NCBI GenBank assembly: GCA_024228355.1
Contig: JAAETN010000380.1
Location: 1 to 42,120 of the forward strand
Direction: 5' to 3'
Origin: Maribacter sp.
GTDB taxonomy: Bacteria > Bacteroidota > Bacteroidia > Flavobacteriales > Flavobacteriaceae
DNA length: 42,120 bases
Shown: positions 14,469 to 36,940 of the stretch, piece by piece
Numbering within the stretch: the first letter of the stretch is position 1
How the letters are laid out: every line of letters starts with the position of its first letter
Program-made: the position numbers and the translations under genes
Notes under the pieces: generated by a model
What the model was told of the DNA's origin: nothing
Database searches by the model: none
What the model saw: the letters and a program-made list of their open reading frames with translations, nothing else

Positions 14469-14518
14469 TCATTGGTTTTGTGTAACAACAACACCTATGT
14501 CTATTAAAAGTTGGTTAA

Positions 14519-14743: not shown

Positions 14744-15081
14744 GCTACCAAGAGTATTATAAAAAAAGCATAAATAACCATGAAAAAATCTGAATAAGAC
14801 AAACGCAAATCCTCGATTGGCATTAACAACTAATGCACATCCTTTCAAAAGAAGAAAATAATTATGAAAAGTGGTTCGTAGTTGGTAGATCGAATCTTGA
14901 TAACACATGACTAAATAAGCAAGTAAAAGATGGTTTCAAAAGACAGAATACGATCATTTATGATTAACTTTATAGTTGGTTTACTAAAGACAAGATCCGG
15001 ATAAATTCTACGTAAATACTACGTGAAAATGTCGGTCAATATGAATGCAAAAAAGGTATATCATTGGTAATCTCAAAATAA
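14740..15081 (+). pseudogene. Decayed N-terminal remnant of an AMP-forming propionyl/acetyl-CoA synthetase (prpE-like)
   Basis: Reading one frame from the ATG at 14740 gives 114 codons with stops at 14791, 14824, 14908, 14965, 15013 and 15079. Between the stops the residues still follow the N-terminus of PrpE-like synthetases: MSYQEYYKKSINNHEK, then ILDW, then ILSKEENNYEKWFVVG, then KDGF..QNTIIYD, then TKDKI and ENVGQYE. The first stop (TGA) falls where the family has Trp in 'FWxxQA', consistent with a TGG-to-TGA change. The frame is kept throughout most of the remnant, so decay is mainly by point mutation. The remaining four fifths of a normal ~630-residue enzyme are absent. Intact acs starts 64 bases downstream. 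The alignment is from memory of the family, not a search. Confidence 0.8.
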
Positions 15082-15145
15082 TCGATTAAAAATGGCAAAC
15101 GTATATAAAATATATAAAGTAGGAACCAATTAAAAAACAATTAGA

Positions 15146-20014: not shown

Positions 20015-20017
20015 AAT

Positions 20018-21460
20018 CTATAAGGTTGGTATTCGTAAGACTTTTTGATCCTCTTTATATTTTTTCAATGCAATAATTGCGGCAATTTTGGCTTCTTCGT
20101 TTGTTTTAGCCTTTAATACTTCAGGCGAATAATAATTCTTTACGAAGTGAGTGTCAAAATTCCCTGTACGGAAAGCCTCATGCTCGAAAACAAATTTACC
20201 AAAAGGCAAAGTGGTCTGAACACCCTCAATATGGTAATCCCCAATGGCTTCTAGCATCATTTGGATCGCTTCATCCCTATTTTTGCCATACGTAATCAAT
20301 TTCGAAAGCATTGGGTCATAGTAGATGGGAACATCCATACCCTCTTCAAAACCATTATCAACCCGAACTCCTTCACCTGTGGGCAGCTCATAAGTTTCCA
20401 ATGTTCCTACACTGGGCAGGAAATCGTTCAATGGATCTTCGGCGTAAACCCGAAGTTCCAGGGCATGACCATTTATTTTCAAGTCTGCCTGCTTTATCTT
20501 CAATTTTTCGCCACGGGCCACACGAATCTGTAATTCCACCAAATCAACCCCAGAAATCAATTCACTCACTGGATGTTCTACTTGTAACCTTGTATTCATT
20601 TCCAAGAAATAGAATTTATGGTCAGCATCCATCAAGAACTCAACTGTTCCTGCACCCAAATAATCACATGCCTTTGCGACTTGTGTAGCTGCAATTCCCA
20701 TTTCTTCGCGGAGTTCAGGAGTTAAAACAGATGATGGTGCTTCTTCAACCACTTTTTGGTGACGTCGTTGTACGCTGCATTCACGTTCAAAAAAGTGTAA
20801 TATGTTTCCATGGCTATCTGCCATGACCTGAATCTCGATATGCCTTGGGGAAGTAACATATTTTTCTATAAAGACCGAACCATCGCCAAATGCGGACGTG
20901 GCCTCACTAATTGCACGGTTCATTTGTGATTCAAGGTCTTTCTCTTTCTCAACAATACGCATACCCTTACCTCCACCACCGGCAGATGCTTTAATTAGGA
21001 TTGGAAAGCCAATTTCTTTCGCTATTACCTTTGCTTTCTTAACATCGGTAATGGCCTCATCAATACCTGGCACCATGGGAATATTGTAACTCTTGACTGC
21101 ATCCTTTGCCGCCAATTTGCTCCCCATAACCCGTATCGCCTTAGATTTTGGACCAATGAATATAATCTTGTTTTTTTCGACCTCTTCAGCAAAATCAGCA
21201 TTTTCACTTAAGAAACCATAACCAGGATGAATACCGTCAACATTTAACCTTTTTGCAACTTCAATTATTTTTGAGCCTAAAAGATAGGATTGGTTCGACG
21301 GAGCCTCACCAATACAAACCGCTTCATCTGCAAATTTTACATGGGGCGCATTTCTATCTACCTTGGAGTATACCGCAACAGTTTTTATTCCCATTTTCTG
21401 GGCAGTTTTCATAACACGTATCGCTATTTCTCCCCTATTGGCTATTAATATTTTCTTCAT
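20018..21460 (-). CDS. accC: Biotin carboxylase subunit of acyl-CoA carboxylase
   Basis: This 480-residue enzyme uses ATP and bicarbonate to carboxylate the biotin of the carrier protein. It shows the N-terminal ILIANRGEIAIRV, the ATP-grasp glycine loop ASAGGGGKGMRIV, the catalytic segment EMNTRLQVEHPVSELI and a C-terminal biotin-carboxylase domain (ELRVYAEDP). The length fits a free-standing subunit without a fused carrier. I start at the ATG at 21460; the upstream TTG at 21475 would add five residues that overlap the preceding gene. It is three bases from the carboxyltransferase gene and seven bases after the carrier gene, so the three are one operon. Confidence 0.93.
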   Translation of the reverse strand: MKKILIANRGEIAIRVMKTAQKMGIKTVAVYSKVDRNAPHVKFADEAVCIGEAPSNQSYLLGSKIIEVAKRLNVDGIHPGYGFLSENADFAEEVEKNKIIFIGPKSKAIRVMGSKLAAKDAVKSYNIPMVPGIDEAITDVKKAKVIAKEIGFPILIKASAGGGGKGMRIVEKEKDLESQMNRAISEATSAFGDGSVFIEKYVTSPRHIEIQVMADSHGNILHFFERECSVQRRHQKVVEEAPSSVLTPELREEMGIAATQVAKACDYLGAGTVEFLMDADHKFYFLEMNTRLQVEHPVSELISGVDLVELQIRVARGEKLKIKQADLKINGHALELRVYAEDPLNDFLPSVGTLETYELPTGEGVRVDNGFEEGMDVPIYYDPMLSKLITYGKNRDEAIQMMLEAIGDYHIEGVQTTLPFGKFVFEHEAFRTGNFDTHFVKNYYSPEVLKAKTNEEAKIAAIIALKKYKEDQKVLRIPTL

Positions 21461-21467
21461 GGGTATA

Positions 21468-21953
21468 TTATTCAAATTCTATCAATAATTGTTTTTTCTC
21501 AACAGCATCACCTTGATTAACCGATATTGATTTAATGATACCGTCTCTTGGTGAGAAGATTACATTTTCCATCTTCATGGCTTCCAATATCAATAATGGA
21601 TCATCTTGATTGACCCCCTGGCCAACCCTAATATTAATTTCTAAAATAAGACCAGGCATAGGGGCGTGGATTGAACCAATATTTTTACTTGATCCCAAAG
21701 ACAATCCCATTTCCTTAATCAACAGATCCAACCCATCTGATATATCAACATCATAGATACTGTTGTTTACCTTCACGGAATATTTCTTTTGATTAAAATT
21801 TGAACCGACGATCTCGGTCAAAAATGGCTTGTTGTCCTGTAGGATGTGATACGTTTTTTCTGAAGTTGGCAACGCATCTATATTCACAATGTCCTCATTG
21901 GTTATTTTAAACGATAAACTATCGTTAACGGTAACCTTAAACTGTTTGTCCAT
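21468..21953 (-). CDS. Biotin carboxyl carrier protein of acyl-CoA carboxylase
   Basis: The 161-residue protein ends in a biotinyl domain with the acceptor Lys127 in EAMKMENV and the preceding API/APMPG turn (IHAPMPGLILE). The N-terminal 85 residues form a separate small domain (YSVKVNNSIYDVDI) similar to that found ahead of the biotin domain in acyl-CoA carboxylases, rather than the long Ala/Pro linker of AccB. It is the first gene of the operon with biotin carboxylase and carboxyltransferase, and supplies the mobile biotin arm between them. Confidence 0.9.
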   Translation of the reverse strand: MDKQFKVTVNDSLSFKITNEDIVNIDALPTSEKTYHILQDNKPFLTEIVGSNFNQKKYSVKVNNSIYDVDISDGLDLLIKEMGLSLGSSKNIGSIHAPMPGLILEINIRVGQGVNQDDPLLILEAMKMENVIFSPRDGIIKSISVNQGDAVEKKQLLIEFE

Positions 21954-22373
21954 ATATGGTGCAATTTTGAATTATTCACTTAGCTCTGCAATGCTGGAAT
22001 TCACTTCACAATTATTAACTCCCACATTAGTTATAGGTAGGTTTCCATATACCCATAAACATTCTTTCTCCCATTATAAAACCTAACAAGGATAAAGATA
22101 AAAAATACCAATAAACATGAAATATATCATGTTTTGATCGACTTGGCAAATGTGAAATTAGCTAGAACTAAAATCGTTATTATTCGATTAAGGCAAGCAT
22201 ATAAAACTTGTCTTGATACCTACTAAAAACGAAACACTATTGTGGTGCTCCAAGCAATATGACTACCTTTGTCAGGACCATTTAATACCATTGGATTGTT
22301 TGGATTTATATCAATTTACTATAGATTAACAAGGAATGGTTTCAATAATTTAAGTGTATTTTGATACTAATTA
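21954..22373. other. Intergenic region between divergent carboxylase operon and meaB
   Basis: This AT-rich region of 420 bp contains no plausible open frame. It holds a good promoter candidate for meaB (22240-22271). No matching CAAAnnTA motif was found for the minus-strand carboxylase operon. The 10-bp palindrome CCATATATGG at 21950-21959 covers the start codon of the carrier gene and is probably fortuitous. Confidence 0.4.
22240..22271 (+). promoter_or_regulatory. Candidate promoter of meaB
   Basis: TTG at 22240-22242 and TACCTTTG at 22264-22271 are 21 bp apart and match the Bacteroidota consensus TTG-N(17-23)-TAnnTTTG exactly. Transcription would start near 22278, leaving a leader of about 96 bases before the meaB ATG at 22374. 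Confidence 0.55.
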
Positions 22374-23396
22374 ATGAAAAACTACAAACCAAAAGACAGA
22401 TTATCTGCAAAAGAATACATTGATGGTATCTTAAACGGGGACCGTGTTATTCTTTCAAGAGGGATTACCATTGTAGAAAGCAAACTGGAAAGTGATAAAA
22501 TACTGGCCAAAGAGATCATCCAGGAGATATTACCTTTTTCCGGTAAATCTATAAGAATTGGAATAACAGGCGTTCCTGGAGTAGGTAAAAGCACCTTTAT
22601 TGAGGCATTTGGAAAGCATTTGATAACCAAAGGACATAAGGTGGGTATTTTGTCAATTGACCCTAGTAGTCAACGCTCAAAAGGTAGCATTCTTGGTGAT
22701 AAAACCCGAATGGAGGAATTGGCCAATTTGGAGGATGCCTACATACGCCCTTCGGCCACTGGTGACACTCTTGGTGGTGTGACCAATAAAACAGGTGAGA
22801 CCATGTTGCTTTGTGAAGCAGCCGGTTACGATGTGATTTTGATAGAAACCGTTGGTGTTGGACAATCTGAAACTGCAGTTCACGGGATGACTGATTTCTT
22901 CTTACTGTTAATGCTGTCAGGAGCTGGTGACGAACTTCAGGGAATTAAAAAAGGAATTATGGAGATGGCTGATATGGTAGTAATAAACAAGGCAGATGGT
23001 GATAATATTAAAAAGAGTGAAATGGCCCGGCGGCAGTATCAAAATGCCTTGCATATTTTTCCCCAATCAGATTCGGGCTGGAGTCCTGTGGTAACCACGG
23101 CATCAGCAATAAAAAATATTGGTATAGATACGGTTTGGAATGAAATCGAAAAATATAAAACCTTGGTTGAAAAAAATGGTTATTTCAATAAAAACCGAAA
23201 CAATCAACAAATAAAGTGGATGTATAATAATATTAATGAAGAATTAAAGCAGTTGTTCTACGGTTCAAAAAATATCGCCAAACACCTTTCAAATTTGGAA
23301 CAAGAAATTGTTACCTCAAAAATATCACCGGTAAAAGCTGCCCAATTAATAATTGAAGAGTTTAAGCAATCATTTAAGAACCCTGCACCAAATTAA
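22374..23396 (+). CDS. meaB: Methylmalonyl-CoA mutase-associated GTPase MeaB
   Basis: MeaB is a G3E-family GTPase that guards methylmalonyl-CoA mutase, gating B12 loading and release of damaged cofactor. The 340-residue product shows a Walker A loop GVPGVGKST (about residues 66-74), then SIDPSSQRSKGSILGDKTRM, RPSATGDTLGGVTNKT, the ETVGVGQSE switch region and the guanine-specificity motif NKADGDN. Length and motifs are those of MeaB. It points toward the mutase genes but on the opposite strand, its 3' end facing mutB with a 43-bp gap. A short inverted repeat (AACCCTG 23379-23385, CAGGGTT 23404-23410) may terminate it. Confidence 0.93.
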   Translation: MKNYKPKDRLSAKEYIDGILNGDRVILSRGITIVESKLESDKILAKEIIQEILPFSGKSIRIGITGVPGVGKSTFIEAFGKHLITKGHKVGILSIDPSSQRSKGSILGDKTRMEELANLEDAYIRPSATGDTLGGVTNKTGETMLLCEAAGYDVILIETVGVGQSETAVHGMTDFFLLLMLSGAGDELQGIKKGIMEMADMVVINKADGDNIKKSEMARRQYQNALHIFPQSDSGWSPVVTTASAIKNIGIDTVWNEIEKYKTLVEKNGYFNKNRNNQQIKWMYNNINEELKQLFYGSKNIAKHLSNLEQEIVTSKISPVKAAQLIIEEFKQSFKNPAPN

Positions 23397-23439: not shown

Positions 23440-25572
23440 TTATGCCTGCTCTAAATATTTTTCCATAATCGTTATGGCGGATTTAGAAATGACCGTTCCA
23501 GGGCCAAAAATAGCGGCAACCTTTCTTTCCAACAAATAGTCATAATCCTGTTCTGGAATTACGCCACCTGCAAACACCATAATATCAGGTCTACCAAGTT
23601 TTTCCAATTCCCCGATCAATTGAGGAATCAGTGTCTTGTGACCCGCAGCCAAACTTGATGCACCTACAAAGTGAACATCATTTTCAATAGCCTGTTTTGC
23701 CACTTCTTCCGGTGTTTGGAAAAGAGAGCCCATATCAACATCAAAACCTAGATCGGCAAAACTGGAAGCTACTACTTTTGCTCCCCTATCGTGGCCGTCT
23801 TGACCCATTTTAGCAATCATTACCCGTGGACGACGACCTTCTGTCTCCGCAAATTTATCGGCTAATTTTTGTGCCTTCACAAATGTGCTATCGTTATCTA
23901 CTTCCTTACTGTACACGCCACTTATTAATTTGGTATCTGCTTTGTGACGTCCAAAATGAACTTCCAGAGCATCTGAAATTTCACCCAAAGTAGCAAAATT
24001 TTCGGCAGCTTCTACTGCTAATTCCAATAAATTGCCTTTACCGGTTTCGGCACATTTTGAAAGTGCTGAAATATTGGCGTCTACTACCACTTGATCTCTA
24101 TTGGCTCTTAGTTTTTTCAAACGCTCAATTTGTGAATCGCGTACAACCGTATTGTCAACTTCAAGAATCTCGATATTTGATTTTTCGTCGGTCTTAAATT
24201 TATTTACACCAACCAAAATATCCTGGCCTGAATCCAATCGTGCCTGCTTACGGGCAGAGGCTTCTTCAATTCTCATTTTTGGAACTCCTGTTTCAATGGC
24301 TTTTGCCATTCCACCAAGCTCTTCAACTTCTTCAATCAGCGCCCATGCCTTTTTAGCAATTTCCTGTGTTAAATATTCCACATAATACGAACCGGCCCAA
24401 GGATCAACCGCTCTAGTAATCTGTGTTTCATCTTGAATATAAATCTGTGTATTACGGGCAATCCTAGCAGAGAAGTCCGTTGGTAAGGCAATCGCCTCAT
24501 CCAGTGCATTGGTATGCAAGGATTGCGTTCCGCCCAAGCCGGCAGCCATAGCCTCGATGCAAGTACGTGCAACGTTGTTGAAAGGATCCTGCTCGCTTAG
24601 ACTCCATCCTGAAGTTTGGCTGTGCGTACGTAAAGCCATTGACTTTGGATTCTTAGGATTGAACTTCTTAATGATCTTTGCCCAAAGCATACGTGCAGCA
24701 CGCATTTTGGCAATTTCCATAAAGTGATTCATCCCCACAGCCCAGAAAAAAGACAATCTAGGTGCAAATTCATCAATCTTCAAACCAGACTTTAATCCTG
24801 TTCTAATATATTCCATACCATCGGCAAGGGTATAAGCCAACTCAATATCAGCTGTTGCACCTGCTTCTTGCATATGGTAGCCACTAATTGATATTGAATT
24901 GAATTTTGGCATGTTTTGGGTTGTATACTCAAAAATATCACCGATAATCTTCATTGATGGCAATGGTGGATAGATGTACGTATTACGCACCATAAATTCC
25001 TTTAAAATATCATTCTGGATTGTCCCACTCAAATGATCCAAAGAAACGCCTTGCTTTTTAGCTGCAGCAATATAAAATGCCATTATCGGAAGTACAGCAC
25101 CGTTCATGGTCATGGAAACAGACATTTTATCTAACGGAATCTGGTCAAATAAGATTTCCATATCCAAGATAGAATCTATGGCAACACCAGCCTTACCAAC
25201 ATCACCTGTCACACGTGGATGATCGGAATCGTAACCACGGTGCGTTGCTAAATCAAAAGCAACTGAAAGTCCCTTTTGACCGGCTGCCAAATTTCTACGA
25301 TAGAAGGCGTTTGACTCTTCGGCCGTTGAAAATCCTGCATATTGTCGAATTGTCCAAGGTCGTGTAACATACATTGTGCTGTACGGACCTCTTAAAAAAG
25401 GAGGTACCCCTGCCGCAAAATCCAAATGCTCTGCATCCTTTATATCCTCTTTCGAAAAATGTTTCTTTACTGGTATTCCTTCAGGCGTATTCCAAACATC
25501 TTTTTCTCCTGAAGCCGCAGCGTTTTTTGTTGCTGCTTTATTTAATGTTAAATCTGAAAAATCGGGTCTCAT
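23440..25572 (-). CDS. mutB: Methylmalonyl-CoA mutase large (catalytic) subunit
   Basis: This subunit (also named scpA) interconverts succinyl-CoA and (R)-methylmalonyl-CoA using adenosylcobalamin. The 710-residue length is typical. The TIM-barrel part has [43 protein letters not shown] and [11 protein letters not shown]. The C-terminal cobalamin domain has the lower-ligand motif DGHDRG (His near residue 593, in [16 protein letters not shown]) followed by [14 protein letters not shown]. It overlaps the small-subunit gene by ATGA (25569-25572), so translation is coupled. It is the last gene of the eight-gene run that begins at mce. Confidence 0.95.
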
Positions 25573-27386
25573 ACTTCTAAGGATTTTAATGTTTTCTGAA
25601 TTCTATTCTGAATGCTTGAAATCGTAGTAATAACATCTGATTTAATATTTACACAACCATCAAGACCAGCTTCTGTCAATTCATCAATTATGTTAGTTGG
25701 ATTACCTGCCAACAGCAACACTTTTTCACTATTCAAAGCTCTAAACCATTTTACATAGGCTATCGCACTTTCTTCATAATCTTGATCAGAACTACAGATT
25801 ACCACTACACTGGAGTCTGACTTAGCACTTTGCTCTGCAGCTTCCTGGGCAGATGAATAACTTTGTTCTTGTAGTACATTAAAACCACTAACACCAAGAA
25901 AATCATAGGCAAATGCCGCTCTGGCCTTTCTCATGGTCAAATTTCCAAAACTGGCCAATTCAACTACAGGTCGTTTGTTGGTTTTTTCCACAAATTCTTC
26001 AGTCGTTTTTCTAATGGCTTCTATTTCCAAGGAAGCTCTCCTTGGTCTTAAAACTTTGGTTTTACTTTTTTCACCTGCCGAAAGGATAGTTGAAGTGACG
26101 GTCTCCATTAAATTGGGATATTTATTTACACCAACCATCGGTAGCCTTCTTTGACTTATTAATTTAATTTTTTCCTGACGGATTTCAGCAATTTGTTGCT
26201 GGATCAATTCACTTTCAAATGATTTATAGAATCCCCCATTTTCTTCAACAGCCTTGAAAAGTTCTAATGCTTTTGTCACAATTTTAGCACTGACCTCCTC
26301 AATATAGTACGAACCATCTACAGGATTGGCAACCTTGCCAAGATAAGATTCTTCCTTTAGGATGGTTGAAATATTACCTGCAATTCTACTTGAAAAATCA
26401 GATGCATCATTGAATTCCCTATCATAAGCATCAATTAAAACACCATCAACATTACCCAAGATGGCTGACATGGCTTCAGTTGTCGCCCTTAATAGATTGG
26501 TATGCGGATCAGTGACCGATTTGCTCCAAATAGAAGTTTTAGCAATTATAGTATGTGAATGTTCAGTTATACCATACTTACTTGCTATTTCATTAAGTAA
26601 GCTATTAAAGGCTCTGAATTTACCTATTTCAACAAAATATTCTGAACCAACGGCCAATTTGAAATTGATCTTGTTAAAAATTACTTGCTCCGAAATACCC
26701 CTATCCTTTAATTTTTCGATTAAGAAAACCAATGAACTTAAAGTATAAGCAACTTCTTGAACTTGATTGGCACCCGAATCCAAATATTCACTTCCCGAAA
26801 TCGTAAGTACCTTGTAATTTGGATAATCTTCGGCTAATTTTATCACTTCAGCCGTTTGGTCAAATTGTTGCTCACCTATGTTACCTTCTGTAAGATAATC
26901 GGAAATCAATTCCGAATCAAAGTATCCTTTCAGATTTGCAGCAGCAATATTGTTCTCCTTTGCATATTCAAAAAAGTCAGAAGCAAATTCAACCACATTG
27001 GTCTTTATACTGAAAGAAACCACTAACTCATTTAGATCGATACCTTTTAAAAGTTTAGCTGCAGAAATTTTCTTGTCAACTGTAAAAAGTAATCCGTTGA
27101 TTCCTTCCCCGATAGCTTTTAAAGCTAATTGGTTAGCTTCCTCTTCAGAACCCACATCAATACTCCTATAGTTAATTAAGGAATGCGAGTTTTCACCTGT
27201 GTTCTTAATATAGTCCAGTTTGTCCTCAGCATTATAAAAAGGCAGAATTTTGATTTTGCTCAAGTTTTTCCAAACCAATTTTTTGTCAAAATCAGCACCT
27301 TTTAGATCAATGCCTACTTTTTCCATCCATTCCTGCTTAGTAACAGGTTTGAATTCAGAAAAAAGCGATTTGTTTGAATCGTTCAT
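25569..27386 (-). CDS. mutA: Methylmalonyl-CoA mutase small subunit (long form)
   Basis: The 605-residue protein is homologous to the catalytic subunit but lacks its key residues. It keeps a barrel-like region ([50 protein letters not shown]) and a C-terminal cobalamin-domain relic from about residue 480 that has no DxHxxG motif. Such subunits form heterodimers with MutB and do not bind B12. The start at MNDSNKSLF is followed by the conserved [21 protein letters not shown] second, shorter homologue of 463 residues is at 34512-35903. The upstream gap of 55 bases holds a dyad and a promoter-like motif (27423-27444). Confidence 0.93.
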
Positions 27387-27422
27387 AATATGTACTGTTA
27401 ATTGTAATATACCTATTTGCTC

Positions 27423-27444
27423 GTCATAAATTATGACAAAGTTA
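27423..27444 (-). promoter_or_regulatory. Candidate promoter with overlapping dyad before mutA
   Basis: On the minus strand TAACTTTG (27444-27437) fits the TAnnTTTG motif; its first three bases are the stop codon of the CoA-transferase gene. Directly downstream, a perfect dyad GTCATAA-A-TTATGAC (27423-27437) would cover the transcript start. No well-spaced -33 TTG was found, so this is a weak promoter candidate with an operator-like palindrome. Confidence 0.35.
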
Positions 27445-28731
27445 GTGAACCATTAAGCTACTACCGAACCTGTCAAAAATAGCTTTATCTAATTCCTCCC
27501 TATGATCCGGATGTGCTATATCCCTTAAAGATTGTGCCCTTTCTTTCAAGTTTCTACCAAACAACCTTGCGATACCATATTCAGTGGCCACATATCTGGC
27601 ATGTGCTCGAGTAGTTACGACGCCCGCACCTTGCTTTAACATCGGTACGATTTTGGAAACTCCTTTAGCCGTAGTTGAGGTTATTGCAATAATCGGTTTT
27701 CCTCCCGGTGATAATGCTGCACCTCGCATAAAGTCCATTTGACCTCCAACTCCAGAGAACATTCTTGTTCCAATTGAATCGGCACAAACTTGGCCGGTAA
27801 AATCAATTTCAATGGCAGAATTAATGGCTGTAACTTTAGGATTCTGGCGAATTACCGCTGTATCGTTAACATAGGCGATATCCTTCATTTCGATTTCGGG
27901 ATTGTCATCCATAAAATCATAAAGCCGTCTTGAACCCATGGCAAAACCGGATACAATTTTATAAGGATTCAATTTTTTCTGCGAACCTGTGACGATATCC
28001 TTTTCGACAAGGTCAACTATGCCTTCAGAGAACATTTCGGTATGAACTCCTAAATCCTTGTGGTTGTTCAAAAAGCTCAATACGGCATTTGGTATTCCAC
28101 CAATACCCATTTGAAGCGTAGCGCCATCTTCGATGATCTCTGCAATATTTTTTCCTATTAGTTCTTCCTCCTCAGTAGGTGCCGCCAGTTTCATTTCGTG
28201 AATTTCCTCAACTACTTCTACACAAGCATCAAAGTTTCTTAAATTTACCAAAGCATCACCAAAGGTTCTTGGCATTCGTTGATTGATTTGTGCAATCACC
28301 TTTTTACCTTTCTCTATAGCAGCGATTACAATATCTACTGATACACCCAAGGAACAAAATCCATGCTTATCTGGTGGGGATACATTCACAAGAACTACAT
28401 CAAGATTCATATATCCTTGACGGAATAGACTTGGGATATCACTCAAGAAAATAGGAATATAATCGGCCGTATTACCAACCATCCTTCTTATATTTCCTCC
28501 AATAAAGAAAGCATTTGTTTGAAAACTTTCCCTTACTTCAGGTGCGGTATATCCGCACTCCCCTTCTGTATGAAGATGCACAATTTCAACACCCCTTAAT
28601 TCAGGGGCTCTATCTACCATAGCCCTTACCAAGGTTTGTGGGGTTGCCGATCCTCCTTGGATTAACACCCTGTTTCCTGATTCTATAAGTTTAACAGCTT
28701 CTTCGGCTGTCATTAAATTCGGAATTTTCAT
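27442..28731 (-). CDS. Acetyl-CoA hydrolase/CoA-transferase family protein (probable propionyl-CoA:succinate CoA-transferase)
   Basis: The 429-residue protein belongs to the Ach1 / class I-like CoA-transferase family. It shows LIQGGSATPQTL near the start, VNVSPPDKHGFCSLG, the GIGGIPNAVL loop (209-218), HTEMFSEG (230-237) in the region where the catalytic glutamate is expected, and AFAMGSRRLYDF-like and GRNLKERA segments later. It moves CoA between acids or hydrolyses acyl-CoA. Its place between oadB and mutA, within genes that convert succinyl-CoA to propionyl-CoA, makes succinate/propionate the likely pair, as in ScpC-type cycles. Acetate or 4-hydroxybutyrate specificity is the main alternative. 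Confidence 0.85.
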   Translation of the reverse strand: MKIPNLMTAEEAVKLIESGNRVLIQGGSATPQTLVRAMVDRAPELRGVEIVHLHTEGECGYTAPEVRESFQTNAFFIGGNIRRMVGNTADYIPIFLSDIPSLFRQGYMNLDVVLVNVSPPDKHGFCSLGVSVDIVIAAIEKGKKVIAQINQRMPRTFGDALVNLRNFDACVEVVEEIHEMKLAAPTEEEELIGKNIAEIIEDGATLQMGIGGIPNAVLSFLNNHKDLGVHTEMFSEGIVDLVEKDIVTGSQKKLNPYKIVSGFAMGSRRLYDFMDDNPEIEMKDIAYVNDTAVIRQNPKVTAINSAIEIDFTGQVCADSIGTRMFSGVGGQMDFMRGAALSPGGKPIIAITSTTAKGVSKIVPMLKQGAGVVTTRAHARYVATEYGIARLFGRNLKERAQSLRDIAHPDHREELDKAIFDRFGSSLMVH

Positions 28732-28778
28732 TTTTCTTAAACTTTATAATTCAACATATCCATTTACTGGACGATTAT

Positions 28779-30101
28779 TTACCCTAAAAAACTCAATAAG
28801 ATACCCGCAGCAATCGCAGACCCAATTACACCAGAAACGTTCGGTGCCATGGCATGCATTAATAAATAATTATTAGGATCGGACTTTAGAGCTTCTGCAT
28901 GTACAACCCTTGCACTATCTGGAACCGCTGATACTCCGGATGCTCCAATCAATGGATTGATCTTATTATCCCCTTTAAGGAATAGGTTCATTAACTTGGC
29001 AAAAAGCAAACCGCCAATTGTAGCTATTACAAATGATATTGCTCCAAGACCAAATATCATCATAGAGTCTTTGGTAATAAAAATATCAGCCTGCGTTGAT
29101 GCTCCCACTGTTACACCTAGTAGAATCGTTACTATATCAATAAGTTTTGTACGTGCTGTATCTGCAAGCCTTTCTGTTCTTCCGGATTCCTTCAATAAAT
29201 TCCCAAAGAACAACATTCCCAATAACGGCAGGGCACTAGGCGATATGAATGTGGTTAATAACAATGCAACAATCGGAAAAATCATCTTTTCTTTTTGCGA
29301 AACGGCCCTTGGTGGTTTCATTCTGATTTTCCTGTCTTTCTTCGAAATCAATAATCGCATTATTGGAGGCTGAATAACAGGTACCAGCGCCATGTAGGAA
29401 TATGCTGCAATTGCAATGGGACCAATAAGGTTTTTGACCGTTGTACCGTCGGGTAGTATATTAATACCATTTGCAAGTTTAGAAGATAAAAATATCGCAG
29501 TGGGGCCATCTGCCCCCCCTATTATACCAATAGCACCTGCTTCTGGTAAAGCGAATCCCAGATAAAGGGCTCCTAAAAATGTGGCAAAAACACCTATTTG
29601 AGCTGCGGCACCTAATAACATCAGTTTTGGATTGGCTATTAGCGATGAGAAATCGGTCATGGCTCCAATACCTAAAAATATCAACGGTGGATAAACACCT
29701 TTTACTACTCCAAAATAAAGGTAATTCAAAACGGAACCAGTTTCGTAAATACCGGTTTGATTTCCTGCAACGAACGGAATGTTCCCTATAATTACACCAG
29801 CACCAATGGGAATTAATAATAGCGGTTCATAATCATATTTAATACCTAGATATATAAATATGATTCCTATTAGAATCATTAGTATATGCCCCCAGGTAGC
29901 ATTTGCAAAACCTGTATAATTGTAAAACTGCTGAATACCATGAAAAGCGTTATTATAAATCCCGTCTTCTTGATTATCAGCTTGTTCGGAAGATACTGAG
30001 GTAATGTTGTCCTTAGGATTGGTATCACTGTCAAAACCTAGAACAGGTCTAATAAAAATCAGCAGGGACAGAACACCGAATATTAATAGTATTTTCTTCA
30101 T
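28779..30101 (-). CDS. oadB: Sodium-pumping decarboxylase beta subunit (OadB/MmdB family)
   Basis: The 440-residue inner-membrane protein is the Na+ channel and decarboxylation subunit of biotin-dependent decarboxylases. It carries the family hallmark GGADGPTAIFLSSKLA with the essential Asp198, and PLIGASGVSAVPDSARVVH near the end. About ten membrane segments follow from residue 70. The first 70 residues are an unusual extension: a signal-like hydrophobic segment (3-21) followed by a polar, acidic periplasmic stretch. It is flanked by the biotin carrier and a CoA transferase, and belongs with MmdA and the OadG-like subunit, so carboxybiotin from methylmalonyl-CoA is the likely substrate. Confidence 0.92.
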   Translation of the reverse strand: MKKILLIFGVLSLLIFIRPVLGFDSDTNPKDNITSVSSEQADNQEDGIYNNAFHGIQQFYNYTGFANATWGHILMILIGIIFIYLGIKYDYEPLLLIPIGAGVIIGNIPFVAGNQTGIYETGSVLNYLYFGVVKGVYPPLIFLGIGAMTDFSSLIANPKLMLLGAAAQIGVFATFLGALYLGFALPEAGAIGIIGGADGPTAIFLSSKLANGINILPDGTTVKNLIGPIAIAAYSYMALVPVIQPPIMRLLISKKDRKIRMKPPRAVSQKEKMIFPIVALLLTTFISPSALPLLGMLFFGNLLKESGRTERLADTARTKLIDIVTILLGVTVGASTQADIFITKDSMMIFGLGAISFVIATIGGLLFAKLMNLFLKGDNKINPLIGASGVSAVPDSARVVHAEALKSDPNNYLLMHAMAPNVSGVIGSAIAAGILLSFLG

Positions 30102-30174
30102 TTTGTTTTTTTTGCGAGTTTAGCGCCTTATCATTCGAGAAGAATCAACATCAAAACGCACAACCGTTAAATTT

Positions 30175-30594
30175 CTATTCTAGTTCTATCATTATTTCGT
30201 TCTGCAATACTTGTTGACCAACGCTGACGTTTACGGCAGTAATCGTACCCGCTTTTTCTGACACGATATTGTTTTCCATTTTCATCGCTTCGAGCACCAG
30301 CAACCTGTCTCCTATCTTGATTACGTCTCCGACTTTTGCATCAAGCGACAAAACCACCCCTGGTATGGGAGCTACAATTTTTGTTTTTGATGAGCTTGGG
30401 TTTACTTTAAGTGGTTCTGCAGGTCTTTTTGACGCCGCACGAACCAAAGTGGGAGTTTTTGTTTTCTTGATTTCCTCCTTCATTTTCACGGAATAAGAGG
30501 TTCCATTTACTTCCAACTCAATCTTATTTCCTTCATGCGAAAGAATTTTAACATTGTAATTGTTATCTCGTATTTTGAATTTAAAATTTTTCAT
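30175..30594 (-). CDS. Biotin carrier (gamma) subunit of Na+-pumping decarboxylase
   Basis: The 139-residue protein has a C-terminal biotinyl domain with acceptor Lys105 in LEAMKMENN and the turn VAPIPGVV. A flexible Lys/Pro/Ala/Ser linker (about residues 40-72) precedes it, as in decarboxylase gamma subunits. It shuttles CO2 from the carboxyltransferase (MmdA) to OadB. It lies 73 bases before oadB and 65 bases after the OadG-like gene in transcription order. Confidence 0.9.
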   Translation of the reverse strand: MKNFKFKIRDNNYNVKILSHEGNKIELEVNGTSYSVKMKEEIKKTKTPTLVRAASKRPAEPLKVNPSSSKTKIVAPIPGVVLSLDAKVGDVIKIGDRLLVLEAMKMENNIVSEKAGTITAVNVSVGQQVLQNEIMIELE

Positions 30595-30659
30595 TATTCT
30601 TTCTTATTGTTTCTATTGACCAAGTCTTTTCTACTTTCTGACAATCTGATACGGATTGG

Positions 30660-31028
30660 TCAAAGTCTACGATGATGTGTGGCATATATTTTAGAACTCC
30701 AAGGCGAATATAATTTTCTAGCCTGTTTTATGGTCAATATGGCATTTTCATCATCATGCTGTTCATTTAGATATAAATGAATGGCTGATGAAATTACCGC
30801 TGCAATTTCACCCGTGAAATTTTCATCTGCACCGATGGGGATATCCTTTATCTTTTTATCCTTGCCTTTGGTTATTATCCGGTATATATATAACAAAACC
30901 GGTAGCCCAAACTTAAAGAACAGTGAAAGGGTCAGCAATGCACAAAATACAATGATCAGACCGGTCAATAAAATAACTAATCCTTCATTAACCTGATCTA
31001 TTTGTAAACTCATGTTCAATAGCATCAT
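30660..31028 (-). CDS. OadG-family small subunit of Na+-pumping decarboxylase
   Basis: The 122-residue protein has a single N-terminal membrane helix (about 17-41, [20 protein letters not shown]). A cytoplasmic tail follows with [15 protein letters not shown], the conserved helix of OadG/delta subunits. Its ATG overlaps the stop of the carboxyltransferase gene (ATGA at 31025-31028), implying coupled synthesis. The subunit is thought to hold the soluble transferase to the membrane-bound beta subunit. Alternative start codons lie within the first six residues. Confidence 0.85.
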
Positions 31029-32584
31029 AATGGTAGGTTTGAGTGTTTCTTAGGAGGGTTCACTTCTTTTTTATTGGAAAGTAATTCAAGGGCCCTAATA
31101 ATTCTGAAACGCGTATTTCGAGGCTCTATGACATCATCTATAAAACCATATTTGGCAGCAACATATGGGTTAGCAAATTTCGCTGTATACTCATCTTCTT
31201 TCTGCTCAATATATTTGGTTTTTTCCTCAGTATCCTCGATTTTTCTAATGTTACTCCCTTCGAGTACTTCAACGGCTCCCTTGGCACCCATCACTGCAAT
31301 TTCTGCTGTTGGCCAGGCATAATTCAAATCACCTCTTAACTGTTTACAGCTCATTACATCATGTGCGCCACCATATGATTTACGTAGTGTTATGGTAACT
31401 TTTGGCACCGTAGCTTCCCCATATGCAAATAATAATTTAGCGCCGTGAAGTATAATTCCGCCATATTCCTGTCCAGTCCCTGGCAAGAAACCTGGAACAT
31501 CAACCAAAGTAACTATCGGAATATTAAAGGCATCACAGAAGCGAACAAATCGAGCCGCTTTCCTTGAAGCCTCAATATCCAGAACCCCTGCATAATATTT
31601 AGGTTGATTGGCTACGATACCCACCGGACGACCATTAAATCTTGCGAAACCAACTGTGATGTTACGCGCATAATTCCTATGCACTTCAGTAAACTCCCCA
31701 TTATCAACAATTATTGAAATAACATCAACTATGTCATAGGGTTGATTGGGATTTTCAGGAATAATATCATTTAAGGCATCTTCTAACCTTTCAATCGGAT
31801 CATTACAAACAATAGCTGGCGGATCTTCCAAATTATTTGAAGGCAGGTAACTCATTAGCTTACGAATCAACAATATGTTTTCTTCATCGGTTTCCGCTAA
31901 GAAATGTGAAACTCCTGATTTTGTGGAATGAATCTTTGCACCACCTAATTCCTCGGCTGAAACAATTTCACCAGTTACCGTTTTCACCACTTTTGGTCCA
32001 GTTACGAACATATAACTGGTTTTATCTGTCATAATAGTAAAATCGGTTAAAGCGGGTGAATATACAGCCCCACCTGCACAAGGACCCAAAATGGATGAGA
32101 TTTGGGGAATTACCCCAGAGGCCATAATATTTCTTTGGAAAATTTCGGCATATCCCGCCAAAGATCTTACCCCTTCTTGGATACGGGCCCCTCCACTATC
32201 ATTAAGTCCAATTACAGGAACGCCAATTTTCATGGCCATGTCCATAATTTTACAAATCTTCAGGGCATAGGTTTCAGATAAGGATCCCCCAAATACCGTA
32301 AAATCCTGGGAGAACACATAAACAATTCTACCGTCAATAGTACCATGACCAGTAACCACACCATCGGAAAGAAACCTTTGTTTATCGAGTCCAAATGATT
32401 TTGATCTATGGATAACGAACATATCAAATTCCTCAAAACTGTCGTCGTCCAACAATAAATCTATTCGTTCACGAGCTGTTAATTTCCCCTTTGCATGTTG
32501 TGAATCTATACGTTTTTCACCACCACCCAATCTTGCTTTGGCCCTTTTCTCAATAAGCTCATTGATTTTTTCTTGATTTGCCAT
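31025..32584 (-). CDS. mmdA: Methylmalonyl-CoA decarboxylase/carboxyltransferase alpha subunit (MmdA-like)
   Basis: The 519-residue carboxyltransferase is a paralogue of the PccB-type protein at 18473-20014 and shares its motifs: [63 protein letters not shown] and [18 protein letters not shown]. Both end in NLPL/NIPL. Because it is followed by OadG-, biotin- and OadB-type genes rather than a biotin carboxylase, I read it as the alpha subunit of a Na+-translocating methylmalonyl-CoA decarboxylase. Annotation as propionyl-CoA carboxylase beta is the usual alternative. It starts 61 bases after mce. Confidence 0.88.
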
Positions 32585-32645
32585 TATGATCTGTTAGGTT
32601 ATCTTTTTTTAATTACCAATTCTATTTTTTCACTTTCTTTCTACA

Positions 32646-33053
32646 CTACTCCTTTTTTGAACAAAGTTCTGTGAGAACACCATTGGTTGATTTAGGATGA
32701 AGGAAACCAATATTTAATCCTTCAGCACCTTTTCGAGAAACTTTATCAATGAGTCTTACCCCACGTTCTTCTGCTTTCTTCAAAGCTTCATCTGTGTCTT
32801 TAACAGCAAAAGCCATGTGATGCATTCCTGGGCCTTTTTTGGCGATGAACTTGCCAATGGGTCCGTCAGGGGAAGTACTTTCCAGTAATTCAATTTTTGT
32901 TGAACCCACCAAAAAAAAGGCTGTTTTCACTTTTTGATCAACAACCTCTTCAATAGCGTAGCATTTTAATCCTAGAACCCCTTCATAGTACTTGATTGAT
33001 TCTTCCAAATTATCTACGGCTATACCAATATGTTCAATATGGGAAATGTTCAT
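32646..33053 (-). CDS. mce: Methylmalonyl-CoA epimerase
   Basis: This 135-residue member of the VOC (glyoxalase-like) fold interconverts (R)- and (S)-methylmalonyl-CoA and so links the mutase to the decarboxylase or carboxylase. Visible are the N-terminal HIEHIGIAVDNLEESIKYYE with a metal-ligand His, the internal GMHHMAFAVKD repeat with the second His, and GVLTELCSKKE with the final Glu ligand. Length and motifs are standard. It is the first gene of the eight-gene minus-strand run and so marks the probable operon promoter region, which holds a 16-bp dyad. Confidence 0.94.
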   Translation of the reverse strand: MNISHIEHIGIAVDNLEESIKYYEGVLGLKCYAIEEVVDQKVKTAFFLVGSTKIELLESTSPDGPIGKFIAKKGPGMHHMAFAVKDTDEALKKAEERGVRLIDKVSRKGAEGLNIGFLHPKSTNGVLTELCSKKE

Positions 33054-33571
33054 GATTATTAAGTTTATAAGTTATTTTAAAATATCCATATAGTATTCCA
33101 ATTTCTCTAATCCAAGAAATAAAAATGCAAAATTAATGGGTAATAGACCACAAATTTATGACAGATGTCATATAATTTTATAAAATTGAATTAGGATAGT
33201 TGGGTTTAAGTTATCTATCCTTCAATCCATAAATGATTTTAAACAAATACCACCTTTAGTTATCTTGGAATTATCTAAATAATCCTTCTAAAACAATTAG
33301 ATAAAAGAAGTCATATTTTATAACAATTTAGCTTTGGAATGTGGTATTTAAATATACTAAATACATATATAAAATCATATCATTGGAGGGCCAACTTTAA
33401 AATTCAAACAATCAACAAATAAAAAAATCAGCAGCTCCTTAAACATAATGAAAAGTCGAATTTCATCTGACACTATTAGAACCCAAGGTCTTGTCTAATG
33501 ACTTTCAAGAACATTGAACAAAAAAGTTAGGTTTCATACCAAATCATTATTTTTGAATCAAATTAAAAAGT
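33054..33571. other. Intergenic region between mce and udk
   Basis: These 518 bp are strongly AT-rich and carry no credible open frame. They hold the candidate mce promoter/dyad (33151-33172) and two other inverted repeats: GGATAG/CTATCC at 33194-33220 and TTATCTAA/TTAGATAA at 33271-33304. For udk, TATTTTTG at 33548-33555 and TAGCTTTG at 33329-33336 both fit TAnnTTTG, but neither has a well-placed -33 TTG. The first would give a leader of about ten bases. Confidence 0.35.
33151..33172 (-). promoter_or_regulatory. Candidate promoter and 16-bp dyad before mce
   Basis: On the minus strand TAAATTTG (33158-33151) fits TAnnTTTG. A perfect dyad TATGACA-GA-TGTCATA (33157-33172) lies just upstream, in the spacer between the -7 and -33 positions. 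The half-site ATGAC/GTCAT also forms the dyad before mutA (27423-27437), although in the opposite arrangement. It may be a regulator site; no clear -33 element is seen. Confidence 0.35.
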
Positions 33572-34180: not shown

Positions 34181-34519
34181 ATGACTATGGGATTAAAAGA
34201 TTTAAAAAAGAAAAAGTGGTTTGGGGTTTTGACGAATATCTATGTTTTGGTATTGACAGTTTTTGTGGTGTGGATGCTTTTTTTTGATACTAATTCACTT
34301 CTTATCCATAAAGAGCTTAAAAAGGAGATAAAAAACCTTGAAAAAACCCAGGATTTTTTGCGCAATGAAATCGAAAAGGATAAAAAGATAATTGAGAAAT
34401 TATCTGATACCAATGAACTGGAAAAATTCGCTCGTGAGCAATACTATCTTAAAAAGAAAAATGAAGAGATTTATTTGATAGAGTACGAGGACAGCTTAAA
34501 GAATGTAGTAGATGAGTAA
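34181..34519 (+). CDS. FtsB/DivIC-family septum formation initiator
   Basis: The 112-residue bitopic membrane protein has one transmembrane helix (about residues 16-35), a periplasmic coiled coil (about 40-80, rich in Lys/Glu/Leu heptads), and the family ending LEKFAREQYYLKKKNEEIYLI. Such proteins join FtsL and FtsQ in the divisome. The start follows the udk stop without a gap, and its 3' end overlaps the next gene by 8 bases. Confidence 0.9.
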   Translation: MTMGLKDLKKKKWFGVLTNIYVLVLTVFVVWMLFFDTNSLLIHKELKKEIKNLEKTQDFLRNEIEKDKKIIEKLSDTNELEKFAREQYYLKKKNEEIYLIEYEDSLKNVVDE

Positions 34520-35903
34520 AGGTGGCTTATTCGAAGAATTTGATGCTTTTTCCGCGAAGGCTTGGAAACAGCAAATTCAGTTTGACTTAAAAGGTGCCGA
34601 TTACAATAAAACTCTAGTTTGGGAATCCCCTGAAAGTATCCCTGTAAAACCCTTTTATCATGCTGATGATTTAAATGGAAAGCACATTGCGGAAATAGCT
34701 CCAATTACAAAATGGTCCATTGGTCAAAATATCTATGCTGGTGATGCCAAAAAAGCGAATGCTAAAGCCCTCGATATATTGGCTCGAGGAGCCGATAGTC
34801 TTAGTTTTATTATTCCCACAAGAGAAATTCAAATTGATGCTTTATTACAAAATATTGATTTAGGTAATACCCCCATTTATTTCGAAATGCAATTTTTGTC
34901 TTTTGAATACATCAAACAAATTAGGGATTACATTGGTAGTAAAAAGGCCTGCCTTTATTTGAACATAGATATCATTGGTAATTTAGCCAGTACAGGAAAT
35001 TGGTTTCAGAATATTGATAAAGACCATGAAACCCTTTCCACATTGTTGAATGAAGATTTAAATTCAAGTGCAATCAAAATTCTGGGTATTGATGTTTCTT
35101 TGTACCAAAATGCTGGAGCAAACCGGGTACAGCAACTGGCCTATGCCATGGCACATGTGAATGAATATTTGAATTTCATTAAAAACAATGCATCAAAACC
35201 ACCTAAAGAAATCGTTTTCAAAGTTGCAGTTGACACCAATTATTTCTTTGAAATCGCAAAACTAAGGGCCTTACGATTACTTTGGAATACCCTTACCATA
35301 AAATATGGCTTTGATACTAATTGCCATATCGTTGCGACTCCAACACATCGTAATAAAACTGTTTATGATCATAACATAAACCTGTTACGTACTACTACGG
35401 AATGTATGTCTGCTATTTTAGGAGGTGCCAATACGATTTATAATTTAGCTTACGATGGGATTTTTCATAAAGACAATGAATTTGCAGCACGCATTGCCCG
35501 CAACCAATTATTGATAATAAGGGAGGAAAGTTATTTTAAGCAAGTATATAATCCGTCTGATGGCTCTTATTATATCGAAAGATTAACGGAGCAAATGGCA
35601 GAAAAGGCTTTAGCCTTATTCAAGAATATCGAAACAGGTGGTGGATTTCTAAGGCAATTGAAGACACATAATATCCAGAAGAAAATCAAGGAAAGTGCCC
35701 AAAAAGAACAAAACCAATTCAACAAAAACGAAAAAATATTAGTTGGTAGCAATGACTATATCAATGATTTGGAAAGAATAAAAGATGATTTGGAACTGTA
35801 CCCATTTGTAAAAACCAAGGCACGAAAAACGCTGCTGGAACCGATAATTCCAAAACGCTTGGCTGAAGAATTGGAGAAAAAACGACTGCTATTAGAACAT
35901 TAA
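34512..35903 (+). CDS. Methylmalonyl-CoA mutase small-subunit homologue (short form, orphan)
   Basis: The 463-residue protein is clearly homologous to the 605-residue MutA at 25569-27386. Shared parts are FDLKGADYNKTLVW, YQNAGANRVQQLAYAM, RTTTECMSAILGGANTI and NPSDGSYYIERL. It stops just after the linker, so the C-terminal cobalamin-like domain is absent. I do not think it is broken, since the end KRLAEELEKKRLLLEH looks natural and the frame is clean. In several flavobacteria such a short subunit follows udk and an FtsB-like gene and precedes the large mutase gene (from memory). Here the large gene is absent from this site and parA follows after 263 bp. Confidence 0.88.
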   Translation: MSKGGLFEEFDAFSAKAWKQQIQFDLKGADYNKTLVWESPESIPVKPFYHADDLNGKHIAEIAPITKWSIGQNIYAGDAKKANAKALDILARGADSLSFIIPTREIQIDALLQNIDLGNTPIYFEMQFLSFEYIKQIRDYIGSKKACLYLNIDIIGNLASTGNWFQNIDKDHETLSTLLNEDLNSSAIKILGIDVSLYQNAGANRVQQLAYAMAHVNEYLNFIKNNASKPPKEIVFKVAVDTNYFFEIAKLRALRLLWNTLTIKYGFDTNCHIVATPTHRNKTVYDHNINLLRTTTECMSAILGGANTIYNLAYDGIFHKDNEFAARIARNQLLIIREESYFKQVYNPSDGSYYIERLTEQMAEKALALFKNIETGGGFLRQLKTHNIQKKIKESAQKEQNQFNKNEKILVGSNDYINDLERIKDDLELYPFVKTKARKTLLEPIIPKRLAEELEKKRLLLEH

Positions 35904-36166: not shown

Positions 36167-36940
36167 ATGGGCAAGATAATTGCTATTGCAAATCAGAAAG
36201 GCGGTGTGGGTAAAACTACCACAACCGTGAACCTAGCTGCCTCGCTGGGTGTTCTTGAAAAAAAAATCCTTCTTATTGATGCCGATCCCCAGGCAAATGC
36301 GACTTCTGGATTGGGTATTGATGTTGAGCGTGTAGAAAAGGGAACGTACCAATTATTGGAGCATACCAAAAGTGCCAAGGAAACAATAATACCAACAGAT
36401 TCCCCGAATCTGGATTTAATTCCCTCACACATTGATCTAGTCGCTATTGAAATTGAATTAGTCGATAAGGATGAGCGAGAATATATGTTGAAAAAGGCGA
36501 TTACAGCGCTTAAAAACGACTACGACTATATTCTGATAGATTGTGCCCCTTCATTAGGACTGTTGACATTAAATGCGTTAACTGCGGCAGATTCGGTAAT
36601 TATTCCGATTCAATGTGAGTATTTCGCTTTAGAGGGACTAGGTAAGCTTTTGAATACCATAAAGAGTGTACAAAAAATCCATAATCCGGATTTGGATATT
36701 GAAGGGCTTTTATTGACTATGTTCGATTCAAGATTACGCCTTTCAAACCAAGTAGTGGAAGAAGTACGCAAACATTTCTCCGATATGGTATTCGACACTA
36801 TAATTCAACGAAATGTGCGACTGAGCGAGGCCCCAAGTTATGGAGAAAGTATAATTAAATATGACGCAAGTAGTAAGGGAGCGGCCAATTACCTGAATAT
36901 GGCGAACGAATTATTGAAAAAAAACAAGGAAACTGTATAG
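36167..36940 (+). CDS. parA: ParA (Soj) chromosome-partitioning ATPase
   Basis: The 257-residue Walker-type ATPase has the deviant Walker A KGGVGKTT (residues 11-18, with the signature Lys at position 11), Walker A' LLIDADPQANATSGLG, and a Walker B-like YDYILIDCAPSLG. It drives segregation of the origin region together with ParB bound to parS. It is immediately followed by parB (stop TAG then ATG), giving an operon with the usual Bacteroidota order. Confidence 0.95.
   Translation: MGKIIAIANQKGGVGKTTTTVNLAASLGVLEKKILLIDADPQANATSGLGIDVERVEKGTYQLLEHTKSAKETIIPTDSPNLDLIPSHIDLVAIEIELVDKDEREYMLKKAITALKNDYDYILIDCAPSLGLLTLNALTAADSVIIPIQCEYFALEGLGKLLNTIKSVQKIHNPDLDIEGLLLTMFDSRLRLSNQVVEEVRKHFSDMVFDTIIQRNVRLSEAPSYGESIIKYDASSKGAANYLNMANELLKKNKETV

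Follow-up and report, generated by a model that had tools for sequence, protein, structure and literature searches.

Why should a flavobacterium carry, side by side on one strand, the genes of a sodium-pumping methylmalonyl-CoA decarboxylase and those of a methylmalonyl-CoA mutase? The question is raised by contig JAAETN010000380.1 of Maribacter sp. (GenBank assembly GCA_024228355.1), whose positions 1 to 42,120 (42,120 nucleotides, nt) are referred to here as the window, and it is sharpened by the description of the host genus as aerobic. Eight open reading frames, mce, mmdA, oadG, the gene of a biotin carrier, oadB, a coenzyme A (CoA)-transferase gene, mutA and mutB, are transcribed there in this order from 33053 to 23440, and a ninth gene, meaB, can be counted with them. 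We consider it probable that these nine genes are a horizontally acquired module serving a fermentation at low oxygen, in its reductive branch from succinate to propionate, with Na+ pumping. The block itself is real and conserved; it is probably an energy module that was imported, its enzymology is of a known kind, and its arrangement and control are new. Its genes are the following.

32646 to 33053, minus strand, mce, methylmalonyl-CoA epimerase, 135 amino acids (aa); TIGR03081 150 bits, cut-off 115
31025 to 32584, minus strand, mmdA, carboxyltransferase alpha subunit, 519 aa; TIGR01117 804 bits, below the cut-off of 998.8; PF01039 650 bits
30660 to 31028, minus strand, oadG-type small membrane subunit, 122 aa; PF04277 34.3 bits, cut-off 27
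30175 to 30594, minus strand, biotin carrier (mmdC), 139 aa; PF00364 51 bits; biotinylation motif AMKM at residue 103
28779 to 30101, minus strand, oadB, carboxybiotin decarboxylase and predicted Na+ pump, 440 aa; TIGR01109 461 bits, above cut-off
27442 to 28731, minus strand, CoA-transferase of the 4-hydroxybutyrate CoA-transferase type, 429 aa; best matches in PDB 9vag, 2oas and 3eh7
25569 to 27386, minus strand, mutA of the putatively imported type, non-catalytic mutase subunit, 605 aa; TIGR00642 365 bits, below cut-off; match to 6oxc_B
23440 to 25572, minus strand, mutB of the putatively imported type, catalytic mutase subunit, 710 aa; PRK09426 1297 bits, above cut-off
22374 to 23396, plus strand, meaB, mutase-protecting GTPase, counted in the putatively imported block; PRK09435 473 bits, above cut-off

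The original prediction had placed the eight genes on one strand in this order, with gaps of 73 bases or less and two ATGA overlaps, and the coordinates of the reading frames bear it out (61 nt, a 4-nt overlap, 65, 73, 47 and 55 nt and a second 4-nt overlap, in order of transcription); it did not count meaB as a member or notice the displacement of native genes, both of which were found here. All eight proteins pass a Pfam cut-off. NCBIfam cut-offs are passed as well by MutB, Mce and OadB, while MmdA, MutA (365 of 617 bits) and the CoA-transferase (TIGR03948, 299 of 674.8 bits) stay below theirs; in the profile scan the biotin carrier passed none of the NCBIfam cut-offs and OadG had no NCBIfam match. 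Residues Y78, H233, K588, D592 and H594 of MutB align with positions of 1req which we take to be those of the active site and the B12 ligand. An assembly artefact is excluded, since G029, a genome of this genus assembled as a single contig, shares the locus, and so is a chance arrangement, because a comparison of gene order, which had been proposed as a check, found all eight genes in the same order at 19 of the 80 loci fetched. The sequence supports the view that the block is one operon-like unit, which encodes the components of a mutase and of a methylmalonyl-CoA decarboxylase with Na+ pumping. This part of the earlier interpretation stands; its closed cycle is not supported, and the Na+-driven assimilation of propionate that it also suggested is not needed.

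With respect to the pump, D198, S391 and N421 of OadB align to Asp203, Ser382 and Asn412 of the Salmonella oxaloacetate decarboxylase, residues that have been tied to Na+ binding (PMC7274780). They are kept in all of the 94 OadB loci checked and in 44 of the 44 that have at least 80% identity (the window and duplicates are included in both counts). The AMKM motif of the biotin carrier and the presence of an OadG-type subunit, with PF00364 and PF04277 above their cut-offs, are likewise as expected of a Na+-translocating methylmalonyl-CoA decarboxylase. The name of MmdA rests on context: PccB of the adjoining propionyl-CoA carboxylase reaches 797 bits on the same TIGR01117 model, and since the two proteins of the window are 60% identical and score almost equally, they are told apart by the genes beside them.

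The eight genes had been read as a closed succinate-propionate cycle, and it is at the CoA-transferase that this reading loses its hold. The matches of the protein to 4-hydroxybutyrate CoA-transferases in PDB span residues 6-421 or more, near its full length, and its HTEMFS motif places E232 in the region of the glutamate that is presumably catalytic, as in that family. To the succinate types it scores far below membership, with 105 of 658.7 bits on TIGR03458 (YgfH) and 81 of 500 on ScpC, and, beside the protein of the block, the genome of the window encodes a single further member of PF13336, at 58% identity to it. Membership in the 4-hydroxybutyrate type does not fix the CoA acceptor. Because the enzyme is of this type and not of the YgfH or ScpC succinate type, the closed cycle is unproven, and on the sequence it is a possibility rather than a finding. 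Nor is the CoA-transferase a fixed part of the unit, since it is missing at 6 of the 30 loci that join OadB to MutA and in G400, a genome of the same genus.

The stretch upstream of mce holds the two elements that suggest how the block might be controlled.

33158 to 33171, unstranded, predicted palindromic Crp/Fnr-type operator ATGACATCTGTCAT, which recurs upstream of mce genes
33128 to 33135, minus strand, -7 box TAATTTTG, 29 nt from the operator centre; predicted transcription start at about 33123

The operator pattern ATGAYANNTRTCAT was searched in the regions upstream of 38 mce genes that have 78% identity or more to that of the window, with dinucleotide shuffles as the control. It was found exactly in 19 of the regions, within one mismatch in 35 and within two in all 38, against 1.1% (one mismatch or less) and 9.2% (two or less) of the shuffles; the 38 include two duplicate pairs (L006/L096 and L007/L124) and two Bacteroidales (L063 and L064), and without the two duplicates and the Bacteroidales the counts are 17, 32 and 34 of 34. 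Among 39 more distant mce genes none has an exact site and one has a site within one mismatch. Wherever a TAnnTTTG box was present in the range searched, which was the case in 30 of the 38 regions, it stood exactly 29 nt from the operator centre, and the same was true of the 28 boxes left among the 34 regions after duplicates and Bacteroidales had been removed. In Flavobacterium psychrophilum this box spans -12 to -5 (PMC9723704). With the box 29 nt away, the centre of the operator is thus predicted to lie at -41.5. This is the position of a class II activator, and the FNR consensus is TGAY-N4-RTCA; the mce promoter has the spacing of a class II Crp/Fnr promoter, counted from a start of transcription that is itself predicted. 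The E. coli-type FNR and CRP consensus sequences are modestly above the shuffles upstream of mce (29/38 versus 54% and 14/38 versus 19%, respectively).

The operator recurs across whole genomes. The genome of the window (G000) has 16 exact sites against 1 for a reversed-pattern control, and the corresponding numbers are 16/0 in G029, 13/1 in G402, 14/1 in G222, 6/0 in G185 and 9/1 in G283; in G382 the count is near that of its control (9 versus 6). At the exact sites other than that of mce, -7 boxes with one mismatch or less occur at 29 nt in 9 of 14 sites of the window genome, 11 of 15 in G029 and 10 of 13 in G402; when both sides are counted, the hits at 29 nt number 10, 13 and 11, compared with 0-2 at each of the remaining offsets between 15 and 45. 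This tally leaves aside the mce site of the window genome and a site lying right at the end of contig C675, and the mce site of G029 lay outside the regions used. Within two mismatches, the operator was found upstream of MutA2 in 0/19, of ParA in 0/23 and of AcsA in 0/9 regions; within one mismatch it was found before MeaB in 3/35 and before Udk in 8/24, two genes whose intergenic region is in some genomes also that of accB or mce. An Rfam scan at gathering thresholds came back empty, with no B12 riboswitch; no tRNA was found, and sigma-70 and terminator scans, whose models suit other phyla, gave nothing usable.

The genes that share the operator give an indication of when the block might be used. 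In the window genome they encode, among others, PEP (phosphoenolpyruvate) carboxykinase, pyruvate phosphate dikinase and a 2-oxoacid oxidoreductase; a NuoEF-like diaphorase whose gene lies next to that of a NiFe hydrogenase subunit; a ribosome hibernation factor together with a universal stress protein; and an Fnr-like regulator, opposite which stands the gene of a copper P-type ATPase, a usual partner of cbb3 oxidase. G029 adds a periplasmic nitrate reductase and a B12-dependent ribonucleotide reductase. Other sites of the window genome have no clear link: one lies inside a gene (L143), others before AsnA (L141), before a 157-aa frame (L148), by HlyD (L149) and between RNase P and a CBS-type protein (L144), and one has no frame within 400 nt (L150). 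The operator evidence favours use of the block at low oxygen, and the company of the conversion of PEP to oxaloacetate, of the handling of pyruvate and 2-oxoacids and of hydrogenase points to a reductive succinate branch ending in propionate. We infer that the operator is bound by the Fnr-like regulator, which is encoded on contig C69. A gene for sulfide quinone reductase (selenoprotein-subtype model) on contig C15 (L136, L137) has two exact operator copies 155 nt apart, and this pair recurs at its relatives in G029 (L163) and G402 (L172).

In the mechanism that we propose, succinyl-CoA would be rearranged by MutAB and then epimerised by Mce, and MmdA, the biotin carrier, OadG and OadB would decarboxylate the product of Mce while pumping Na+ out of the cell. 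The 4-hydroxybutyrate-type CoA-transferase would free propionate by handing its CoA to a small acid, which may be acetate or succinate. A Crp/Fnr-family activator, rather than a repressor, would act from -41.5 to turn the block on along with the genes of PEP carboxykinase, of pyruvate phosphate dikinase and of 2-oxoacid oxidoreductase and those linked to hydrogenase, with oxygen as the presumed signal.

Just past meaB the window encodes an ATP-dependent propionyl-CoA carboxylase (PCC; PccB, AccC and AccB, 18473-21953), which catalyses the opposite direction of the reaction.

18473 to 20014, minus strand, pccB, native propionyl-CoA carboxylase (opposing enzyme); same position in block-free genomes
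20018 to 21475, minus strand, accC, biotin carboxylase of the native carboxylase; TIGR00514 632 bits, cut-off 626.5
21468 to 21953, minus strand, accB, biotin carrier of the native carboxylase; AMKM at residue 125

The carboxylase and an acetate-CoA ligase hold the same place at three block-free loci (L100, L102 and L117), and for this reason both are regarded as native. With this enzyme in the same window, the Na+-powered route of propionate assimilation that the original prediction had offered is not needed. Such a route is nonetheless a reading to be weighed: the Na+ gradient would drive OadB backwards, carboxylating propionyl-CoA and saving ATP, and MutAB would pass the product as succinyl-CoA to the tricarboxylic acid cycle, in the breakdown of propionate and of branched or odd chains. 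Reversal of such pumps was reportedly described by Dimroth and Hilpert in 1984, the neighbourhood also encodes the carboxylase, AcsA, MeaB and a Na+/solute symporter, and 11 of the 36 genomes bearing OadB have no PCC-type biotin carboxylase at E<=1e-190, a threshold of our own choice. An ATP-dependent carboxylase is nevertheless present here, PCC-type biotin carboxylases occur in 25 of those 36 genomes (genome lists compared by eye; 224 of the 395 Flavobacteriaceae genomes have one), and the operator groups the module with genes of a fermentation type, so that we hold this reversal to be distinctly unlikely. Further along, the window has the look of an acetate-use neighbourhood (3426-17053), with a DUF294/CBS protein, a DnaQ-like exonuclease, a VC_2705-family Na+/solute symporter, a large histidine kinase and the acetate-CoA ligase, the one gene among these that was compared in relatives (L100, L102, L117).

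The likely history of the block can be read from the relatives of the window. At eight block-free loci (L100, L102, L116/L117, L118, L128, L129, L130 and L135) accB adjoins udk, and in the genus of the window the block lies exactly between these two genes; at other block-free or native loci (L101, L103, L105) udk-mutA occurs without accB beside it. The module would have entered between the native carboxylase operon and udk-mutA-mutB. Twelve genomes of the genus were searched for the block and for the native genes, two of which (G398 and G399, 68% complete) are little informative. In G401 (83% complete) and G402 the native mutA and mutB are adjacent and OadB is absent; in the window genome and G029 the block is accompanied by the native mutA, with the native mutB missing; and G222, G344, G395, G396, G397 and G400 have the block, with the native mutA missing. 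Within a single genus there is thus an apparent stepwise replacement, from an intact native pair, through loss of mutB with mutA kept, to loss of both. MeaB follows the same division: in 16 genomes, the nine with the block have only the block type (79-100%) and no native-type match, and the seven without it, among which G206 is counted, have only the native type (50-55%), weak matches to fused mutases apart. A comparison of four genomes of the genus with five of other genera gives 88-92% identity for the block-type MutB, against 78-85% when the native MutB2 of four relatives (G401, G402, G185 and G320) is compared with seven other genomes; G382, which is in both sets, gives 90-92% and 79-80%, respectively. 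This contrast fits a lateral spread of the block, and a stronger constraint on its MutB may also account for it. Taken together, the block, meaB included, looks imported and has probably displaced the native mutB and the native-type meaB.

34512 to 35903, plus strand, orphan native mutA (463 aa), its native mutB partner gone

The surviving mutA was considered as a truncated remnant, and this was rejected, as a short MutA is the norm of the family; among the matches listed, relatives at 52-67% identity lie in open frames of about 450-486 aa. No remnant of MutB2 was found in the gap beside it (matches E >=0.54). Between the window genome and G029, neither of which has the native MutB, the ratio of nonsynonymous to synonymous substitution (dN/dS) of the native MutA is about 0.11, compared with 0.08, 0.10 and 0.15 for three intact pairs, with dS near saturation. 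The ratio of branch lengths of MutA2 to neighbouring genes, worked out by hand from the neighbouring-gene tree, is 3.1 and 4.3 on the orphan branches and 1.5-4.1 on seven paired ones, which puts G029 just above the range. The gene thus appears to be under purifying selection at about the usual rate and is therefore probably still used, and its product may serve the imported MutB or have another role. Two block-holding genomes have a native-type mutB that is perhaps decaying, about three quarters of which is matched, at the low identities of 68% (L131 4454-6082, G283) and 52% (L134 8768-10363, G105). A 1168-aa open frame with mutase matches, resembling a fused IcmF, stands on contig C24 of the window genome (L002, L005) as a further mutase system. 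Genes for ParA and ParB, which often occur near the replication origin, adjoin udk-mutA at 36167-37843.

Several observations weigh against a laterally gained, oxygen-controlled fermentation module. MmdA falls short of its curated cut-off. A tree of 12 neighbouring genes places the block-free G401 and G402 inside the genus, weakly (support 70); a tree with a single gain is not rejected (approximately unbiased test, p 0.277). Inside the window, operator matches with two mismatches or less are at chance level (10 found, 11.8 expected), and only that of mce is exact. A palindrome akin to the operator, ATGATAAATTTCAT or a close variant, also stands in the promoter of the carboxylase, before accB.

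22117 to 22130, unstranded, related site ATGATATATTTCAT (one mismatch) before accB; TATCCTTG, 29 nt from its centre, is one letter off TAnnTTTG

Among 17 accB upstream regions, which include the duplicate pair L006/L096, 9 have this site within one mismatch and 16 within two, against 0% and 12.9% of the shuffles, and an exact TAnnTTTG stands at 29 nt in seven (L117, L118, L100, L102, L128, L129 and L135). A carboxylase promoter free of the operator, and hence under opposite control, was rejected, as it has a one-mismatch relative with the same spacing in several genomes. Since the carboxylase operon has a related site, the control is not simply opposite and there is no simple on/off switch; one regulator may serve both of the opposing enzymes, or each may have its own of a sister pair. 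With an ATP-dependent carboxylase and a decarboxylase with a Na+ pump within the same 15 kb, under related operators of the same spacing, it is conceivable, as a long shot, that the two form a couple which trades ATP for the Na+ gradient or the reverse through the pair propionyl-CoA and methylmalonyl-CoA during oxygen swings, with the orphan MutA available to the imported MutB as another small subunit.

The signal, too, is open to doubt. The Fnr-like regulator has three of the four cysteines presumed to hold the FNR cluster (C9, C12 and C111) and lacks the equivalent of C29, so that it does not qualify as an FNR Fe-S sensor, and oxygen sensing by it is uncertain. The missing cysteine, like the ribosome hibernation factor and universal stress protein genes in the site set, could be explained by an operator bound by a Crp-type regulator of carbon or nitrogen status instead of oxygen, which would make the module a carbon-starvation unit. 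The same set also includes hydrogenase-linked genes and that of sulfide quinone reductase, joined in G029 by those of periplasmic nitrate reductase and of B12-dependent ribonucleotide reductase, and the regulator lies opposite the gene of the copper P-type ATPase, a usual partner of cbb3 oxidase; we regard a nutrient signal as unlikely.

Sediment Flavobacteriaceae have been reported to ferment: Lutibacter and Maribacter isolates gave off acids when oxygen was present, propionate and succinate among them; in its absence acetate, propionate, butyrate and succinate were detected, and Lutibacter grew slowly (PMC10939381). Against our reading, the Maribacter isolate of that report, which may or may not carry the block, did not grow without oxygen, and its acid concentrations were highest after 4 days with oxygen (PMC10939381). 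Such behaviour would suit a redox or overflow valve of little energetic gain, in which propionate formation disposes of succinyl-CoA and restores CoA and the pumping of Na+ is minor, and a CoA-transferase that can be missing (the 6 of 30 loci above) suits it too. A valve of this kind is quite improbable in our judgement, as the Na+-site residues are kept at every OadB locus checked. The low-oxygen fermentation module remains the reading that we prefer. The word "methylmalonyl" does not occur in the main text of PMC10939381, and among the open-access papers that searches brought up, none had a title or opening of the abstract devoted to this module in the family.

The presence of the block is not peculiar to this genome. 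OadB is present in 36 of 395 Flavobacteriaceae genomes and in 19 of the 203 genera sampled, at 82-100% identity to that of the window in 34 of the 36 and at 71-72% in two (G206 and G332). The 80 named loci are the best 80 of a longer list of OadB relatives, and among these best matches are Maribacter arenosus, M. polysiphoniae, Lutibacter, Confluentibacter, Winogradskyella, Formosa and Mangrovimonas. OadB, CoA-transferase and MutA follow one another at 24 of the 80, the 19 loci with all eight genes in order being among them, and OadB joins MutA without the CoA-transferase at 6. The five-gene core mce-mmdA-oadG-mmdC-oadB without a following MutA was found at 38, many of them from Bacteroidales, two of which (L018 and L029) have a CoA-transferase after OadB; the remaining 12 are cut or otherwise incomplete. 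In G206 and at two Salinimicrobium loci (L065 and L066) a different type of mutase and a different CoA-transferase (57-58%) stand beside a different decarboxylase core, which on sequence is the same set of functions clustered a second time with other gene types.

The methylmalonyl-CoA decarboxylase Na+ pumps of Propionigenium modestum and Veillonella share their enzyme class with the predicted pump of the window, and the carbon steps agree (PMC8473912). Those organisms are anaerobes, whereas the host genus of the window is described as aerobic, and its genome also has an adjoining ATP-dependent propionyl-CoA carboxylase and a CoA-transferase that is not of the succinate type. In Bacteroides thetaiotaomicron an epimerase, decarboxylase genes, a mutase and a CoA-transferase (BT1685-BT1689, BT2090-2091 and BT3193) are assigned to the formation of propionate from succinyl-CoA, and a mutant of the BT3193 CoA-transferase produced no propionate (PMC8865466). 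The locus numbers of its mutase and CoA-transferase are far from those of its decarboxylase genes, in contrast to the window, in which all form one unit with meaB. The CoA-transferase of the window also differs from YgfH, and its mce has a Crp/Fnr-type operator, which the 39 more distant mce genes lack. BT3193 we take to be of the YgfH type. The native flavobacterial udk-ftsB-mutA-mutB locus, sometimes beside a propionyl-CoA carboxylase, has the same mutase function and is the ancestral neighbour of the site of the block, but it has no pump, epimerase or CoA-transferase, and has a short mutA (about 460 aa) and its own types of mutB and meaB. FNR regulons elsewhere resemble that of the window in the TGAY-N4-RTCA core and in the class II spacing of -41.5, and differ from it in that the candidate regulator of the window genome keeps three of the four cluster cysteines and binds the operator only putatively.

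Compared with the original prediction, the gene content of the block is less surprising, and its regulation and history are more informative. For the release of propionate, which has been found in the same two genera, Lutibacter and Maribacter, the module is a concrete and directly testable genetic candidate, with a defined operator and a defined set of genes.

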